Shown: piece by piece, positions 2,095 through 17,940 of the stretch
How positions within the stretch are numbered: position 1 is the stretch's first letter
Layout: the number at the start of each line of letters is the position of its first letter
Assembly: GCA_017512725.1 (NCBI GenBank)
Contig: JAFWEW010000044.1
Span: forward strand, 1 to 64,000
DNA: 64,000 nt
Direction: 5' to 3'
Source: Solobacterium sp.
GTDB taxonomy: Bacteria > Bacillota_I > Bacilli_A > Erysipelotrichales > Erysipelotrichaceae
Translations under genes and position numbers: made by a program
Notes under the pieces: generated by a model
What the model was told of the DNA's origin: nothing
The model's database searches: none
The model's input: the letters and a program-made list of their open reading frames with translations, nothing else

Positions 2095-3423
2095 ATGAAA
2101 TCTATAGTTAAAAATACGATTATTTGCATTATAACTTCGATACTTCCGTTATCTGCAGGATGCGTCAGGGCAGAACAGGTGAATGATTCTGAAACAGCGG
2201 AAGAAGAATTGAGTCTTTCTGAAGAAACCGGAGTGAATACAGAAGAACCAGAAAGCTTCATCAGCAATGCGGTCTGGATCTGTGAACCGAGTCTTGAACT
2301 GGAAAGTGTCGAAGAAATGACGCAGTATCTTTATGGCATGAGTATCTTTGCGTCCTGCTATGAGTTTACAGGGTATCCGCAGAGATGGGATCCGGAATGC
2401 CCGGTTGAATATACGGAAAACGCCATCGTCGTAAAAAAGAACGGACGGTACGGCGTGTATGATTATTCCGGAAATGTACTGTATGATACCGTGCTTGAGC
2501 CATATCAAAGCTTAACGGACGAAAATCCCATTTCATATCAGAATTTTACAGGATATATCAACAGCGTATCCTTCAGTGAACGGTTCTCTGCAGATTTCCG
2601 GACCCTGAATGAGTATGCTGTTCCAGGACTGGGCGGTGATTTTGGTACGCTTGCACTCCTGAATGGGAAATATGTTTCGGAATTTTATGGAATGACAGAA
2701 CCAGTCGCATTTGAAAACATCGGAAGGCGAATGGTCGTCGAGAATATCGATCATTCCGGGAATATTATTGGATATTCTGTAGTCCGTGAAAACGGAGAAA
2801 TAATCTCTCAGATTAACGGCAGGCCTTTGGACTTTGTGAATGGATATATCAGTGTAAACAGGAAGTCCCTTGACTGGTGGCTGGGAGATTCTGAGAATAA
2901 TAAACTGCAGATCGTTAAGGCGGAGACGGGTGAAAGTATCAACGATCAGTACTACAACGACATCAAATTCTTTGAATGCGGATACTGTCCGGTAAAGAAG
3001 GGCACAAAGTGGGGATATGTTAATGAAAACGGAGAAGAAGTGACAGACTTTATCTTCGATGACGCATCCACGCTCTATGATGGAAAAGCCTATGTTTCAC
3101 AGGGTGGTCTGTATGGAGTGATTGATCTTGAGGAAACCATTCATAAAGTCGGTCATCTTACCTCCATGGACTGCTATGGAATCGATATTCCCCAGCCGGA
3201 AAACACTGCGGCAAATTCCTCAGGCACGGTCACGGTTAAAGTCACAAATCTTAATATTCGGCGCGGTCCCGGAACAGATTATGACAAAAACGGATTTGCA
3301 GCTCCTGGTATTCTCTATGATGTATACGAAGTAACATTAAACGGCGGTTATACCTGGTATCGGATCGGGGAAAACGAGTGGATCGCTGATAAGAACGGAG
3401 AATGGGTGGACTATTCGGAATGA
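2095..3423 (+). CDS. WG-repeat lipoprotein with C-terminal SH3 domain
   Basis: A 442-residue exported lipoprotein. The N-terminus has a lipobox, LSAGC, with Cys23 as the probable lipidated residue, followed by an acidic Ser/Glu linker. The body carries WG-type repeats: KKNGRYGVYD (about residue 114), KKGTKWGYVNENGEE (about 301) and QGGLYGVID (about 336), which normally build a beta-propeller-like surface domain. Residues 378-440 (VTNLNIRRGPGTDY onward) form a bacterial SH3 domain, which in this class often binds cell wall. The start follows ACAAAGGAG. The gene stands alone with a terminator behind it. The ligand is unknown; a wall-associated binding role is inferred from the domain pair. Confidence 0.85.
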   Translation: MKSIVKNTIICIITSILPLSAGCVRAEQVNDSETAEEELSLSEETGVNTEEPESFISNAVWICEPSLELESVEEMTQYLYGMSIFASCYEFTGYPQRWDPECPVEYTENAIVVKKNGRYGVYDYSGNVLYDTVLEPYQSLTDENPISYQNFTGYINSVSFSERFSADFRTLNEYAVPGLGGDFGTLALLNGKYVSEFYGMTEPVAFENIGRRMVVENIDHSGNIIGYSVVRENGEIISQINGRPLDFVNGYISVNRKSLDWWLGDSENNKLQIVKAETGESINDQYYNDIKFFECGYCPVKKGTKWGYVNENGEEVTDFIFDDASTLYDGKAYVSQGGLYGVIDLEETIHKVGHLTSMDCYGIDIPQPENTAANSSGTVTVKVTNLNIRRGPGTDYDKNGFAAPGILYDVYEVTLNGGYTWYRIGENEWIADKNGEWVDYSE

Positions 3424-8038: not shown

Positions 8039-9481
8039 ATGACAAACGAAGAACTGGTAAATAAGATTCTGGAACAGTGCGGACAGCGGGAAAACGTTGT
8101 ATCTGTCACCAACTGCATGACCCGTCTGCGCATCAATGTAAAAGAAGATGCGAAGATCAGCGATGAGGGGCTGAAGGCCATTGAGGGAGTCCTGGGGGTG
8201 GTACATGACCGCCCGCAGTATGTTGAAGTCGTCGTCGGTCCGGGCAAAGTCCGCAAATGCGCAGATGTCTGTGCGGAAATGGGCATCCCCGCAAGCGGTA
8301 CTGCATCGACCGAAAACAGCTGGCAGGAAAACAAGGCAGCGGTGAAAGCGGCACAGAAGAGCAATCCGGTCCGTGACGCACTGAAAATCTTCGGTGAGAT
8401 CTTTATCCCGCTGATCCCTGGTGTCATTGCGGCAGGTCTCTGTGCCGGTGTAAACACACTGATCCAGCAGCTGAATCCGGGCTGGGCAGACAATTCCGTT
8501 CTGAATGTCATTTGCACCCTGCTCGCACTGATCAATACTTCCTTTATGACCTACATTACCGCATGGGCAGGTTACCGTGCCGCAGAGCGGTTCGGCGGTA
8601 CACCGATCCTTGGCGGTATGCTTGGTCTGATTACCGGACTGGACGGCATCAACACCATTTCGGGCACAATCGGCTGGTTCAATGCGGATTCTCCGCTGGA
8701 CTCCATTCTTAGAAGCGGGCGAGGCGGTGTTCTTGCGGCAGTGCTTGGCGTACTGATCATGGTAAAAGTGGAAAAGGCAATCCGCAAACGGATGCCGGAA
8801 GCGCTTGATATCGTCTTCACCCCGCTGCTGACCCTGTTCATCTGTGTGATTCCGTATGTCTTTGTCGTCATGCCGATCTGCGGTCTTATTTCCAGCGGCA
8901 TCTGTGCGGTTGTCTCCTCCATCTGCATGTCTTCCAGCGCTCTGGTACGGATCCTTGCCGGCTATGTCAGTGCGGCACTGTTCCTTCCGATGGTCGCAAT
9001 GGGCATGCACCATGGGCTGGTTGCGCTGTATACGGTTCAGCTGAACCAGCTTGGTTATGTAACACTCTATCCGGCTCTCTGTATGGCAGGGGCAGGACAG
9101 GTCGGTGCTGCGATCGCAATCTATCTGAAAGCCAAAAAGGTTCATAATGACCGTCTGCGTTCCGTTATCAGCGGTGCGCTTCCTGCAGGTGTTCTCGGTG
9201 TCGGTGAGCCGCTGATCTACGGCGTAACGCTTCCGATGGGCAGACCGTTCTTAACCGCAGGTCTTGGTGCGGGTTTCGGCGGTGCCTTTGTTATGGCAAT
9301 GCAGGTTGCGGCTACGACCTGGGGGCCTTCCGGACTGTTGGGATGCTTTGTCATGACAGCCGGTCCAAATGGTGCAGTGATGAGTGTCGTATATTATTTC
9401 ATCGCACTTGTCATTTCCTGTGCTGCAGCGTTTGCGATCACCTACGCAATGGTCAAAGACGGAGATGTCGCAAATGCCTGA
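8039..9481 (+). CDS. murP: PTS EIIBC component, MurNAc type (MurP)
   Basis: A 480-residue phosphotransferase permease of the sucrose/MurNAc family. The N-terminal EIIB domain (1-85) has the phosphorylated cysteine in SVTNCMTRLRINV (Cys26). The EIIC domain spans about 115-475 with some ten membrane helices, the GMHHGLVALYTVQ segment and the conserved GVGEPLIYG substrate motif. There is no EIIA domain; MurP proteins use a separate glucose-type EIIA. Substrate assignment rests on the surrounding mur genes rather than the protein alone. It imports MurNAc or a MurNAc disaccharide as the 6-phosphate. Its 3' end overlaps the mupG start by 8 bp. Confidence 0.88.
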   Translation: MTNEELVNKILEQCGQRENVVSVTNCMTRLRINVKEDAKISDEGLKAIEGVLGVVHDRPQYVEVVVGPGKVRKCADVCAEMGIPASGTASTENSWQENKAAVKAAQKSNPVRDALKIFGEIFIPLIPGVIAAGLCAGVNTLIQQLNPGWADNSVLNVICTLLALINTSFMTYITAWAGYRAAERFGGTPILGGMLGLITGLDGINTISGTIGWFNADSPLDSILRSGRGGVLAAVLGVLIMVKVEKAIRKRMPEALDIVFTPLLTLFICVIPYVFVVMPICGLISSGICAVVSSICMSSSALVRILAGYVSAALFLPMVAMGMHHGLVALYTVQLNQLGYVTLYPALCMAGAGQVGAAIAIYLKAKKVHNDRLRSVISGALPAGVLGVGEPLIYGVTLPMGRPFLTAGLGAGFGGAFVMAMQVAATTWGPSGLLGCFVMTAGPNGAVMSVVYYFIALVISCAAAFAITYAMVKDGDVANA

Positions 9482-10514
9482 AGTACTGGGCAGATCCGTC
9501 TGTCTCAGTGAATCGAACGGTATGTTTTCGGAAACCGCGGTTTCCGAAGGCATGCCGGTCTTTCTTTCCCTGCACCGGGAAGAAGAGATGGATGGTGCAT
9601 ACAAAGAGAAGATGACGGCGTTCTGCAGTCATCTTTCAAATCATGGATGCAGAATCCTGGCCGATATCTCAAAGCGCACGCTGCAGATATTTGAAGTACC
9701 GGACGCAGAAACGCTGATGGATCAGCTGAATCTCTATGCGGTGCGGCTGGATTACGAGTTTACCGAAGCGGAAACCATTGCTCTGGCAGCGAAACGAAAT
9801 GTGATCATCAATGCCTCAACCATTACCGAAAGTGAGATGGAAGCGCTGAAAGGGAATCCGCATGTCAAAGCCATGCATAATTTCTACCCACGACCGGAGA
9901 CCGGTATGGATGAAGCACAGCTGAAACGGCAGACCGACCGGCTCCATCAGTACGGATTCAAGGTATATGCGTTTATTCCCGGAACCGGGGAAAAACGCGG
10001 TCCGCTCCGGGAAGGCCTTCCAACGCTGGAAGCCCACCGGACGGTTTCTCCGCTGGCAGCGTTTGCGGATCTTGCCCTGCATTATGAAATCGATGAAATC
10101 GTTGTCGGTGATCCACAGTTGTCCGATCGGGAAGATCATCGGATCCGCCGGTTTCTGAACGAGGGTATCCTGGAAGTTGAATGCCGGCTGGAACCGGGGC
10201 AGGAAGGGCTGTATGAGCAGGTCTTTACGAACCGGATCGATTCTCCGGACCGATTGATCCGTATCGCAGAGAGCCGGGAATACAGTGTATCCAACGGCAC
10301 CTGCATTCAACCGGAACATACCAGAATACGGAACATCGGATCCATCACCATGGACAATGAAGGATATGGCCGCTACTGCGGGGAAATCATGATTGCCCGA
10401 ACAGATCTTCCGGCCGATCCGAGAGTCAATGTGATCGGTCAGGTAAGCGAAAAGGATCTTCTGCTTCTGAACTGCATTGCCGGCGGGAAGAAGTTTGTGT
10501 TTGTTAAGGAATAG
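9474..10514 (+). CDS. mupG: DUF871 protein, MupG-like 6-phospho-N-acetylmuramidase
   Basis: A 346-residue TIM-barrel protein of the DUF871 family. The S. aureus member MupG is known to cleave MurNAc-6P-GlcNAc taken up by MurP. The visible body includes VKAMHNFYPRPETGMD, FIPGTGEKRGPLREGLPTLE and a C-terminal small domain ending VSEKDLLLLNCIAGGKKFVF. The ATG at 9474 is chosen because GGAG (9461-9464) lies nine bases before it; it overlaps the murP stop, so the two are translationally coupled. Gene content matches the staphylococcal mupG-murQ-murP-murR group, with murR turned around. Function is inferred from family and context. Confidence 0.85.
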   Translation: MPEVLGRSVCLSESNGMFSETAVSEGMPVFLSLHREEEMDGAYKEKMTAFCSHLSNHGCRILADISKRTLQIFEVPDAETLMDQLNLYAVRLDYEFTEAETIALAAKRNVIINASTITESEMEALKGNPHVKAMHNFYPRPETGMDEAQLKRQTDRLHQYGFKVYAFIPGTGEKRGPLREGLPTLEAHRTVSPLAAFADLALHYEIDEIVVGDPQLSDREDHRIRRFLNEGILEVECRLEPGQEGLYEQVFTNRIDSPDRLIRIAESREYSVSNGTCIQPEHTRIRNIGSITMDNEGYGRYCGEIMIARTDLPADPRVNVIGQVSEKDLLLLNCIAGGKKFVFVKE

Positions 10515-13963: not shown

Positions 13964-14115
13964 AAAAAATCACATAATTCCACATATTCTTAACATATTT
14001 CTGAAACAGTTTCTGCGTACTATAAAGACAGTCAAAGGACGAACCCCTAAGTTCTTTGATTCGATCGGATCCCTTTCCCGATCATACAATTATCCCCTTT
14101 GTAAATGATATCAAC

Positions 14116-14148
14116 GAAAAAGATCACCTTCCCCGGGTGGTCTTTTTC
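14116..14148. terminator. Bidirectional terminator between VOC gene and rpn unit
   Basis: Stem GAAAAAGATCACC and GGTGGTCTTTTTC with loop TTCCCCG. It serves the VOC gene on + and the Rpn unit on -. Confidence 0.75.
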
Positions 14149-14179
14149 ATTGTCTGATTATGGAACGTTTTGTGGTACA

Positions 14180-14446
14180 TTACTTTCCTGGTTCTCTGGC
14201 AATCTTCCAAATCGCACGGTAATCCTTTATCTCTTCCATGGAAAAGTCAGTACCGGATTTGAAGATTTCCTCATCGCTTTTTCCCTGATTAAACTGTTGG
14301 AATACAGAAATGATTGTGCGCTTTATTTCCTGTTTTCCGAGTTCTTTGCCTTTTTCGATTCCTATTTCAATTCCTTCTTCCCGGTATATCTGTTTCAAAT
14401 CCTCTTCGTAACGATCTGCGTCAAATTCTTCCAGAATCGAACCCAT
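14180..14446 (-). CDS. Free-standing copy of the Rpn C-terminal module (RpnS-like)
   Basis: An 88-residue protein nearly identical in plan to the last 108 residues of the Rpn gene just upstream. It opens MGSILEEFDADRYEEDLKQ, has one short IGIEKGKELGKQE unit in place of the longer repeats, then SVFQQFNQGKSDEEIF and EEIKDYRAIWK. It carries its own AAGGAGGAGATA ribosome site directly before ATG and begins 26 bp after the rpn stop. The duplication starts exactly at the ribosome site, so it was probably kept for making the small protein. In E. coli Rpn systems, internally started C-terminal proteins block the toxicity of the full-length nuclease; the same role here is inference. Confidence 0.75.
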   Translation of the reverse strand: MGSILEEFDADRYEEDLKQIYREEGIEIGIEKGKELGKQEIKRTIISVFQQFNQGKSDEEIFKSGTDFSMEEIKDYRAIWKIAREPGK

Positions 14447-14472
14447 TATCTCCTCCTTGTTTTAACAGCACA

Positions 14473-14799
14473 TTACAGTCCTGATTCTTTGGCACTCTTC
14501 CAAATCGCACGATATTCCTTTATCTCTTCCATGGAAGAGGAGGTACCGGATCTGAAGATTTCCTCATCGCTTTTTCCCTGATTAAACTGTTGGAATAAAG
14601 AATTGATCGTGCACTTTGTTTCCTGTTTTCCGAGTACTTTGCCTTTTTCAAGTCCTTTTTCAATACCTATTTCTATTCCTTCTTCTTTGCCTTTTTCAAT
14701 ACCTTTTTCGATTCCTATTTCAATTCCTTCTTCCCGGTATATCTGTTTCAAATCTTCTTCATAACGATCTGCGTCAAATTCTTCCAGAATCGAACTCAT
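14473..14799 (-). CDS. Predicted internal-start product within rpn (RpnS-like, 108 aa)
   Basis: Codon 230 of the Rpn gene is an ATG (14797-14799) preceded at ideal distance by AAGGAGGAGATA, encoded in frame as AKEEIM. Translation here would give a 108-residue protein MSSILEEFDADRYEEDLKQ... covering the repeat-rich C-terminal module. The same 15-base AAGGAGGAGATAATG string heads the downstream free-standing copy, showing that this site works as a start signal in at least one context. Intragenic antitoxins of this kind are described for E. coli Rpn proteins. Confidence 0.6.
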   Translation of the reverse strand: MSSILEEFDADRYEEDLKQIYREEGIEIGIEKGIEKGKEEGIEIGIEKGLEKGKVLGKQETKCTINSLFQQFNQGKSDEEIFRSGTSSSMEEIKEYRAIWKSAKESGL

Positions 14800-15486
14800 T
14801 ATCTCCTCCTTCGCAGCAGCTACTGCTTCGGAAATCATATATGTTTTCGGAATATTCTCCAGAACCGTTTTCACTGCCGTCTCAAGATCCATTTCCTTCT
14901 GCAGATCCCGGATATCCTGTACCAGTTGGGCATATTCCTGCAATGGCTGGCACTTCTTCAGCAGGGTATGATTTCCGCTCTCTTCAGAATTAATATTAAT
15001 CATTCTGACCTTAACGGCAATATCAGGATCTGCGAGTTTTTTCTTCTTTTCATCTCCAATAAACGAGTCCTTAAGATACATCCACTGCTCCGCCGGTTTG
15101 TCCTTCTCACCGTTGTAGAAAACATACAATTTTGGCAGAGGAATATAGTAACGTTTTGAGAAATGCAGGATATTGCGGTTCTGCTCACGGATCCGTTTCT
15201 GGATCAGCTCAACAAAGTAAATCAGTTCCCGCAGCGGTATGTTCTCGTTCCAGGAACTCTGCTGTTCCCAAATATTGATTTCATCATAAATTACAAACGA
15301 TACATCGTTCTTCATCCCGACGAAGTATACATTTTCCAATGTGTTGAATTGGATTGCCTCCGGATCCTGATAATCGGTACCGTTCAGGGCATTGTACAGG
15401 CTCAGGGTATTCTCCTTGTAATCCGGATTACCGAACAGATAACGGAAGAAACGGTCCTTATGTTCTCTTATATTAATGGAATTCAC
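14473..15486 (-). CDS. Rpn-family PD-(D/E)XK nuclease / putative transposase
   Basis: A 337-residue member of the recombination-promoting nuclease (Rpn, PDDEXK_2) family. The nuclease core lies in residues 1-150: DRFFRYLFGNPDYKENTLSLYNALNG is the family opening, and Asp61 with the Glu74-Gln75-Gln76 motif match the active-site pattern. Residues 240-280 hold GIEIGIEKG-type repeats. The start is GTG at 15486 with AAGGAGG eight bases upstream. Rpn proteins act as DNases in phage defence or recombination. An internal ribosome site and ATG at codon 230 probably give a second product, and a duplicate of that region follows the stop. Confidence 0.85.
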   Translation of the reverse strand: MNSINIREHKDRFFRYLFGNPDYKENTLSLYNALNGTDYQDPEAIQFNTLENVYFVGMKNDVSFVIYDEINIWEQQSSWNENIPLRELIYFVELIQKRIREQNRNILHFSKRYYIPLPKLYVFYNGEKDKPAEQWMYLKDSFIGDEKKKKLADPDIAVKVRMININSEESGNHTLLKKCQPLQEYAQLVQDIRDLQKEMDLETAVKTVLENIPKTYMISEAVAAAKEEIMSSILEEFDADRYEEDLKQIYREEGIEIGIEKGIEKGKEEGIEIGIEKGLEKGKVLGKQETKCTINSLFQQFNQGKSDEEIFRSGTSSSMEEIKEYRAIWKSAKESGL

Positions 15487-15631
15487 AGAAAAGCCTCCTT
15501 CATATAATCGGAGAAGCAGTCCCTGAGCCGGTACTTAATTACTCCTCTGCTATACTCTTAGGCGCCTGACTGAGAAATCCCTCATTATTTGAATGGAGAA
15601 TTGAATTGCGGAAGGAAAAAACGGATATGAA

Positions 15632-16558: not shown

Positions 16559-16564
16559 TATAAT
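16559..16564 (+). promoter_or_regulatory. -10 element of the second murQ
   Basis: Perfect TATAAT with a weak -35, TTCAAA, 18 bp upstream (16535-16540). It overlaps an ATG at 16563, which argues for the next ATG at 16590 as the true start. Confidence 0.5.
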
Positions 16565-16589
16565 GAAAACAGAAGGAACAGATTGCGTT

Positions 16590-17411
16590 ATGGGTACCGA
16601 ATCCAGAAACCCGAGATCCATGAACCTCAGTGAACTGAGTGCAGCGGAGATCGTAAAACGGATGAATGAAGAAGACCGCCGGGTATGTGAGGCGGTTTCG
16701 GAATGCATTGATGATATCGGAAAGATCGCAGAAGTATATGCCGATACGCTGAAGCACGGCGGAAGGGTATTTTATCTTGGGGCCGGTACGAGCGGCGGGC
16801 TTGCCATGCTCGATGCGGCTGAGATGCCTCCGACCTTCGGGGTAAGTGAAGATACCGTGATCGCACTGACTGCGGAAGAGGGTATCAACTACACAAATGA
16901 TGCGGAAGACAGCACTGTTCGTGCAGCAGAGAAACTGAAGAAGTATCAGTGCGGAGAAAAGGATCTGGTGATCGGTGTTGCGGCAAGCGGAAGCACACCG
17001 TTTGTCGTGGAAGGGTTGCGCTATGCCAAATCGGTCGGAGCGAAAACCGCGGCAGTAGCATGCAACAAAAATACAAGGATTGGAGAGATCGCAGACTATA
17101 AAGCAGAGGCAGATACCGGGCCGGAGGTGCTGACGGGAAGCACACGGCTGAAAGCAGGCACTGCTGAGAAGATGATACTGAACATGCTGAGTACTGCGGC
17201 AATGGTGCGGTACGGGAAAGTGTATTCCAACTTCATGGTGGATGTGAAACCCATGAATGCAAAACTGGTAAAACGGGCCAGATCAATTGTGATGGAAGTG
17301 ACCGGATGTGATGAAGCGGCTGCACAGGCAGCCATGGAACAGGCAAAGGGTCACTGCAAAACTGCAATTGAGATCATAAAAAGCAACCAGGACAGAACAG
17401 GAGGAAATTAA
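16590..17411 (+). CDS. murQ: Second N-acetylmuramic acid 6-phosphate etherase (MurQ paralogue)
   Basis: A 273-residue SIS-domain etherase related to MurQ at 7.1 kb. It keeps both catalytic glutamates: one in LDAAEMPPTFG and one in NDAEDS (E. coli Glu83 and Glu114). The phosphate loop reads GTSGGLAM where the first copy has GTSGRLGV. It lacks the C-terminal AEEARKRLEAAGG extension. An upstream ATG at 16563 would add nine residues but overlaps the -10; AGAAGGA at 16571-16577 serves ATG 16590. It is followed four bases later by the CW_7 protein gene. It may act on a different muropeptide sugar or be regulated separately (inference). Confidence 0.85.
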   Translation: MGTESRNPRSMNLSELSAAEIVKRMNEEDRRVCEAVSECIDDIGKIAEVYADTLKHGGRVFYLGAGTSGGLAMLDAAEMPPTFGVSEDTVIALTAEEGINYTNDAEDSTVRAAEKLKKYQCGEKDLVIGVAASGSTPFVVEGLRYAKSVGAKTAAVACNKNTRIGEIADYKAEADTGPEVLTGSTRLKAGTAEKMILNMLSTAAMVRYGKVYSNFMVDVKPMNAKLVKRARSIVMEVTGCDEAAAQAAMEQAKGHCKTAIEIIKSNQDRTGGN

Positions 17412-17415
17412 CATT

Positions 17416-17940
17416 ATGCCGTCATTTGGTTCAAGCAATGGCAATTCCGGCAGCAAGGCAGGAATGCCCACAAACATCCAGCCGCAGGCTTCCGCAACGA
17501 AAGAAACAACAACGATGAAATCAATGGACACGATTGTTCAGGAAGTCATCCGCGGAGAATGGGGCAACGGTGCAGAGCGCAAGCAGCGTCTTGAGGCAGC
17601 AGGTTACAGCTATGAAGTAGTTCAGGGCAAGGTAAACCGTGAGCTTGCCAGCATCAAGAGCCTTGATGAAGTCGCAGCGGAAGTCATTCGCGGCGCCTGG
17701 GGCAATGGTGCAGAGCGCAAACAGCGCCTTGAAGCAGCAGGCTACAACTTCAATCAGATCCAGAGTCTTGTAAACGCAAAGCTGTCCGGCGGAACTGCGT
17801 CCGCAAGCTCTCTCGATGAGGTCGCAAAGAAGGTCATCCGCGGGGAATTCGGCAATGGTGCAGAACGCAAGCAGCGTCTTGAGGCTGCAGGGTATGATTT
17901 CAATGCGGTACAGGCCAGAGTCAACCAGCTGCTGAAGTAA
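17416..17940 (+). CDS. Triple CW_7 (Cpl-7) repeat protein without signal peptide
   Basis: A 174-residue protein made almost entirely of three CW_7 repeats. Each reads like SLDEVAxxVIRGxxGNGAERKQRLEAAGY, at residues about 37-78, 81-122 and 132-172. CW_7 motifs of the Cpl-7 lysin bind the GlcNAc-MurNAc-L-Ala-D-isoGln part of peptidoglycan. Here there is no enzyme domain and no signal peptide: residues 1-35 are Ser/Gly/Thr-rich and not hydrophobic. It starts four bases after murQ and must be in its operon. It may hold muropeptides in the cytosol, leave the cell by a non-classical route, or act after lysis; the sequence does not decide. Confidence 0.85.
   Translation: MPSFGSSNGNSGSKAGMPTNIQPQASATKETTTMKSMDTIVQEVIRGEWGNGAERKQRLEAAGYSYEVVQGKVNRELASIKSLDEVAAEVIRGAWGNGAERKQRLEAAGYNFNQIQSLVNAKLSGGTASASSLDEVAKKVIRGEFGNGAERKQRLEAAGYDFNAVQARVNQLLK

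Follow-up and report, generated by a model that had tools for sequence, protein, structure and literature searches.

A Solobacterium Rpn locus with an internal and a free-standing RpnS of different repeat number, the latter a possible stored alternative tail

Overview

The 64,000-nucleotide stretch of Solobacterium sp. DNA analysed here (the window) carries a genuine member of the Rpn toxin-antitoxin family, from a little-studied lineage and in an arrangement that was previously described: a long gene with an internal start, followed by a free-standing copy of the internal small protein that differs from it in repeat number. We give about even weight to the overall reading that this is a gene-within-gene toxin-antitoxin whose antitoxin part was duplicated in tandem, the second copy being a stored alternative tail. 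The mismatch in repeat number, rather than the duplication, is the unexplained part, and it constitutes a general and testable puzzle.

Organization of the locus

The features of the locus are collected in Table 1. The earlier note, drawn from the letters of the sequence, had pointed to an in-frame ATG at codon 230 behind an AAGGAGG and to an 88-aa duplicate with the same head and fewer repeats; the start was confirmed with exact coordinates, and the duplicate by open reading frames and alignment. The identical 15-nt string AAGGAGGAGATAATG, spanning the Shine-Dalgarno (SD) sequence to the ATG, heads both the internal start and the 88-aa ORF, which starts 26 nt past the stop of the 337-aa gene. 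Proteins of 108 and 88 aa share 84% identity over 88 aa, with a single 20-aa (60-nt) gap in the repeats, and the 20 residues that the shorter copy lacks correspond to five 4-aa repeats. Since a strong hairpin follows the second copy, the two genes probably form one transcript; a pattern scan made no terminator call at this hairpin, and a promoter scan gave one internal promoter-like site, no more than expected by chance.

Table 1. Coordinates of the features of the rpn locus in the window.
Feature	Position	Strand	Basis
RpnL, Rpn-type nuclease (predicted toxin) CDS, 337 aa, GTG start	14473..15486	-	ORF; homologue profile TIGR01784; D11, D61, E74, Q76, R86
Shine-Dalgarno AAGGAGG of the long gene	15494..15500	-	sequence
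Internal RpnS, predicted 108-aa product, in-frame start at codon 230 (ATG 14799..14797)	14473..14799	-	start conserved in homologues
Internal Shine-Dalgarno AAGGAGG, encoded by codons 226-228 (K-E-E)	14805..14811	-	sequence
12-nt (4-aa, IEKG/EEGI type) repeat array of the long gene, with 48-bp tandem duplication	14637..14733	-	Tandem Repeats Finder
Duplicated unit, copy 1: SD to about 15 nt past the stop	14459..14811	-	DNA alignment
Duplicated unit, copy 2: repeats 60 nt shorter	14167..14458	-	DNA alignment
Free-standing RpnS, 88-aa ORF, five fewer 4-aa repeats	14180..14446	-	ORF
Shine-Dalgarno AAGGAGG of the free-standing copy	14452..14458	-	sequence
Strong hairpin 3' of the free-standing copy, possible transcript end	14112..14152	-	RNA fold -23.5 kcal/mol, z = -3.25

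Assignment of the 337-aa protein to the Rpn family

Residues D11, D61, E74, Q76 and R86 of the 337-aa protein align, via RpnE, with D11, D63, E82, Q84 and R94 of RpnA, which were tested by mutagenesis in E. coli (PMC5350276). D61, E74, Q76 and R86 are invariant, and D11 nearly invariant, across 16 homologue rows that include the 337-aa protein. TIGR01784 was matched by nine of the 16 full-length homologues (best E 1.4e-12), the E. coli Rpn model PRK09956 by four, and PF12784 and PF04754 by three each. The 337-aa protein alone gave no Rpn profile match at E < 1, and the family was assigned via its relatives. Its own Pfam/NCBIfam matches, Yae1_N and FliH, were rejected as homology, being repeat-driven, and a profile search of PDB matched only designed and repeat proteins. 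The AlphaFold model of the protein, built from a shallow alignment, is of poor confidence (mean pLDDT 40) and says little about a PD-(D/E)XK fold of the N-domain. The reading of the earlier note, an Rpn gene with an internal antitoxin start, is well supported by these residues, the family profiles of the homologues and the conserved internal start, and we regard membership in the Rpn family with an internal RpnS as highly probable.

Recurrence of the free-standing copy and repeat mismatch

The RpnL toxin/RpnS antitoxin system, its variable 4-aa repeats and the existence of separate RpnS genes were established by Zhong et al. 2023 (PMC10327210). The same work reports that E. coli rpnE is followed by a second RpnES gene, ypaA, whose product was detected, and that some E. 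coli strains have a second rpnCS behind rpnC. The combination of an internal and a free-standing copy, which had been taken as new, was therefore already known. Nor is the difference in repeat number without precedent, as it is present in the published MG1655 rpnE/ypaA pair (0 versus 1 extra repeat); the part of the text of Zhong et al. 2023 used here (PMC10327210) leaves that difference uncommented.

Repeat numbers were compared across the window's order and in E. coli. In the order, 12 of 37 long homologues are followed by a free-standing copy, two in tandem in one case. The repeat region differs in 11 of the 13 copy pairs, those of L020 and L051 being equal, and most differences are multiples of four residues, with L083 differing by seven. 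Both L083 and L050, whose internal and free-standing copies differ by seven residues, have a coiled-coil-like tail. For E. coli, 29 genomes were read (loci L055-L071 and L100-L111): MG1655 and 28 from two evenly spread rankings, a sample that is spread, not random, and contains related strains. Repeat numbers differ in all 24 of these genomes that have two intact small ORFs, including MG1655 (internal RpnES with 0 extra repeats, YpaA with 1) and EC1515, whose long gene is annotated with an internal stop. Twelve distinct internal/free-standing combinations were found, e.g. 5/1, 8/4, 4/0 and 1/4.

Active selection for mismatch in E. coli was rejected: under shuffling about one match in 13 would be expected, and the absence of any match has P = 0.32. 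Mismatch is thus what independence of the two copies predicts, which argues against matching being required and not for mismatch being selected. An assembly artefact was also rejected as the cause: apart from the gap, 19 codons distinguish the copies, and the E. coli records are assembled to chromosome level.

In RpnC, one added repeat in either partner abolished neutralisation (PMC10327210, Fig. 4D); this matching rule rests on one protein and one added repeat and may not be general. If it is, most free-standing copies cannot neutralise the adjacent toxin. This bears on the reading of the second copy as a plain spare antitoxin, in which the 88-aa protein neutralises the 337-aa nuclease as the internal product would and, with a ribosome site of its own, adds to the amount of antitoxin. 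The two copies share the SD-ATG and the operon and, gap aside, are 84% identical; E. coli produces free-standing YpaA (PMC10327210), and ypaA is under purifying selection, all of which would fit such a role. Nevertheless, the effect of a one-repeat mismatch on RpnC stands against it, as does the mismatch in 11/13 pairs and 24/24 genomes, which would be unexpected if matching to the neighbour were selected, and we consider the dosage role unlikely.

Age and selection of the copies

The internal (L) and free-standing (S) copies of the window show 91% nucleotide identity to each other and 81 and 78%, respectively, to the syntenic, single-copy relative L005; compared with it, they are each other's closest relatives. 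The DNA of a Solobacterium MAG relative is syntenic with the window at about 87%, which places the host close to that organism. When changes are polarised against L005, 10 nonsynonymous and three synonymous ones fall on the S branch and four and two on the L branch. The L-versus-S dN/dS is about 0.7 and the 88-aa copy of the window shows no purifying selection, so this copy could be drifting. As judged from these identities, the duplication, or a gene conversion, is recent.

In E. coli, ypaA has a dN/dS of 0.12, not far from the 0.08 of the internal copy, in the first 13 genomes, and it is intact in every two-copy genome read; it is under purifying selection. Intact and constrained despite the mismatch, the E. 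coli copy seems to owe its retention to some function beyond mere antitoxin dosage.

Because the duplication in the window is recent and S lacks purifying selection, a functionless young duplicate, left to drift in tandem after slippage or unequal recombination in the repeats, is another reading. It accords with the near-neutral S branch, with the single copy of L005 and with the existence of damaged copies such as that of L052. On the other hand, the ORF, SD and frame of the 88-aa copy are intact, its length change keeps the frame in 12-nt steps, the arrangement recurs behind 12/37 genes, and the free-standing copy of E. coli is constrained. We therefore hold a functionless by-product to be improbable.

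Conservation of the internal start and the small proteins

At the aligned position, 31 of 38 homologue rows have a start codon preceded by an SD of 5 nt or more, against 16 of 210 control windows of the same width taken from other parts of these genes (Fisher p = 4e-21); three genes supply two rows each, and the rows lack independence where their sequences are related. In the homologues, the SD is mostly encoded by the codons of a conserved EV..M motif. Within the window's ORF frames of 250 aa or longer there are 347 in-frame internal ATGs, and two of them have an AAGGAGG at suitable spacing, which speaks against chance. Internal products have been demonstrated for other rpn genes, five from E. 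coli and one from C. difficile (PMC10327210). The conservation of the start is strong sequence evidence that a small internal product would be made across the group, and the 88-aa product is likely made as well. The contrary proposal, that the internal start is unused, the 108-aa stretch being only an oligomerisation tail of RpnL and the free-standing gene the sole antitoxin, could appeal to some relatives in which the internal SD is weak or the start is GTG, but it is very improbable given the start-site counts and the demonstrated internal products.

The model of the small protein (pLDDT 68) shows a long helix at residues 10-35, at the repeats, followed by short helices. Variable 4-aa repeats of RpnS type are present, and their array sits in this predicted long first helix. 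Foldseek matches of the model were non-significant and partly helix-turn-helix, and PDB 7th0 (RpnAS, a 49-aa target) was absent from the profile and Foldseek matches of the small protein, the model being of moderate quality.

Possible exchange of tails between loci

Genome G014 has two rpn loci with about 92% DNA identity and different C-tails (L018, G014:C127 1-1481; L039, G014:C29). L018 contains a tandem pair of free-standing RpnS genes separated by 2 nt, and the first of the pair has the tail of the L039 locus. In E. coli, single-copy loci make up about 25 of 60 rows in each of two spread lists. The five that were read show an internal-type ribosome site and then a ypaA-type tail, and in four of them the whole rpnE N-part is joined to the ypaA tail, as expected from recombination between direct repeats. 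Furthermore, strain GPEC1165 (L109) has a free-standing protein with exactly the sequence of the internal RpnS in the fused strain 09-00049 (L062). Together, the fused E. coli loci and the tail pattern of G014 point to stored tails.

Truncated rpn sequences were also observed. In L052 (G001:C113, about 2640-3170), the long rpn gene is truncated exactly at the internal start, apparently through the loss of 7 nt that are present in the next copy, a loss that takes the internal ATG with it; a second RpnS copy with its own start comes after the truncated gene. The genome of the window itself has a 188-aa C-terminal rpn fragment with its own internal start (G000:C19:17603-17950, L003) and an rpn piece cut by the contig end inside the repeats (G000:C29:11934-12134, L004).

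Proposed role of the free-standing copy

We propose that the 337-aa RpnL is a PD-(D/E)XK DNA nuclease and the predicted toxin, and that the 108-aa internal RpnS pairs with the RpnL tail and blocks RpnL; it has the C-tail and repeat number of RpnL and so can pair with that tail. A duplication that began at the internal ribosome site and ended shortly beyond the stop codon would have created the 88-aa free-standing RpnS, and the copies have since diverged by five 4-aa repeats and 14 residues. Since Rpn pairing needs a matching repeat number, as others have shown for RpnC, neutralisation of the adjacent 337-aa protein by the 88-aa one is improbable. The 88-aa protein may instead be an antitoxin for a different RpnL allele (earlier, paralogous or of a sister strain), and the free-standing copy may serve as a direct-repeat donor, from which recombination would give RpnL a new tail and repeat number.

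Such a stored-tail role for the free-standing copy is possible, at somewhat less than an even chance, and we infer its immunity and donor forms from the pattern of tails. If it is true, stored tails would provide immunity to other RpnL alleles and cassettes that switch the tail and repeat number of the toxin via the direct repeat. The wider proposition, that free-standing RpnS genes as a rule are stored different tails and not antitoxins of the adjacent toxin, in a defence that switches specificity, is put forward as rather doubtful.

Surroundings and phage records

The neighbouring genes encode MupG, SPFH, BAAT, glyoxalase, metallo-beta-lactamase-fold, SIS, CW_7 and prepilin proteins, of housekeeping and cell-wall type, and no defence genes were recognised among them; enrichment near defence genes is a statistical tendency of the Rpn family and no requirement. 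One neighbour (17416-17940, + strand) encodes a 174-aa protein built from three CW_7 repeats, in which no catalytic domain was recognised; it adjoins an SIS-domain gene resembling MurQ (16563-17411), and MupG is encoded at 9384-10514. A search of IMG/VR contigs gave no relatives. Three phage records were matched; the one examined, MT838692.1, is an unverified 'Bacteriophage sp.' scaffold with two tandem rpn genes beside bacterial-looking genes and is probably bacterial DNA.

Comparison with known Rpn systems

The rpn gene of Clostridioides difficile is, like the window's long gene, a Gram-positive Rpn gene with an internal start, and RpnS was made from that start once the C. difficile gene had been cloned in E. 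coli; unlike in the window, no downstream copy is described for it in the part of the source used here (PMC10327210). In E. coli rpnC, which we liken by description, a second downstream RpnS copy arose independently by duplication (PMC10327210), and it was with RpnC that the importance of repeat matching was demonstrated. E. coli rpnE-ypaA shares the long Rpn gene, the internal start behind an SD, the small-protein copy directly downstream, the same SD-ATG string at the head of the second copy and the difference in 4-aa repeat number between copies; one study found E. coli RpnE inactive in overexpression assays (PMC5350276). The E. coli pair differs in belonging to another phylum and in its unrelated tail sequence, and the length difference of the window, five repeats, is larger; E. 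coli ypaA is constrained, whereas the copy of the window is young and shows no constraint. As the second copy of E. coli has mismatched repeats yet is under purifying selection, the role of free-standing RpnS is a directly testable question, for which E. coli K-12 is a ready system and the window's Gram-positive locus an independent case.
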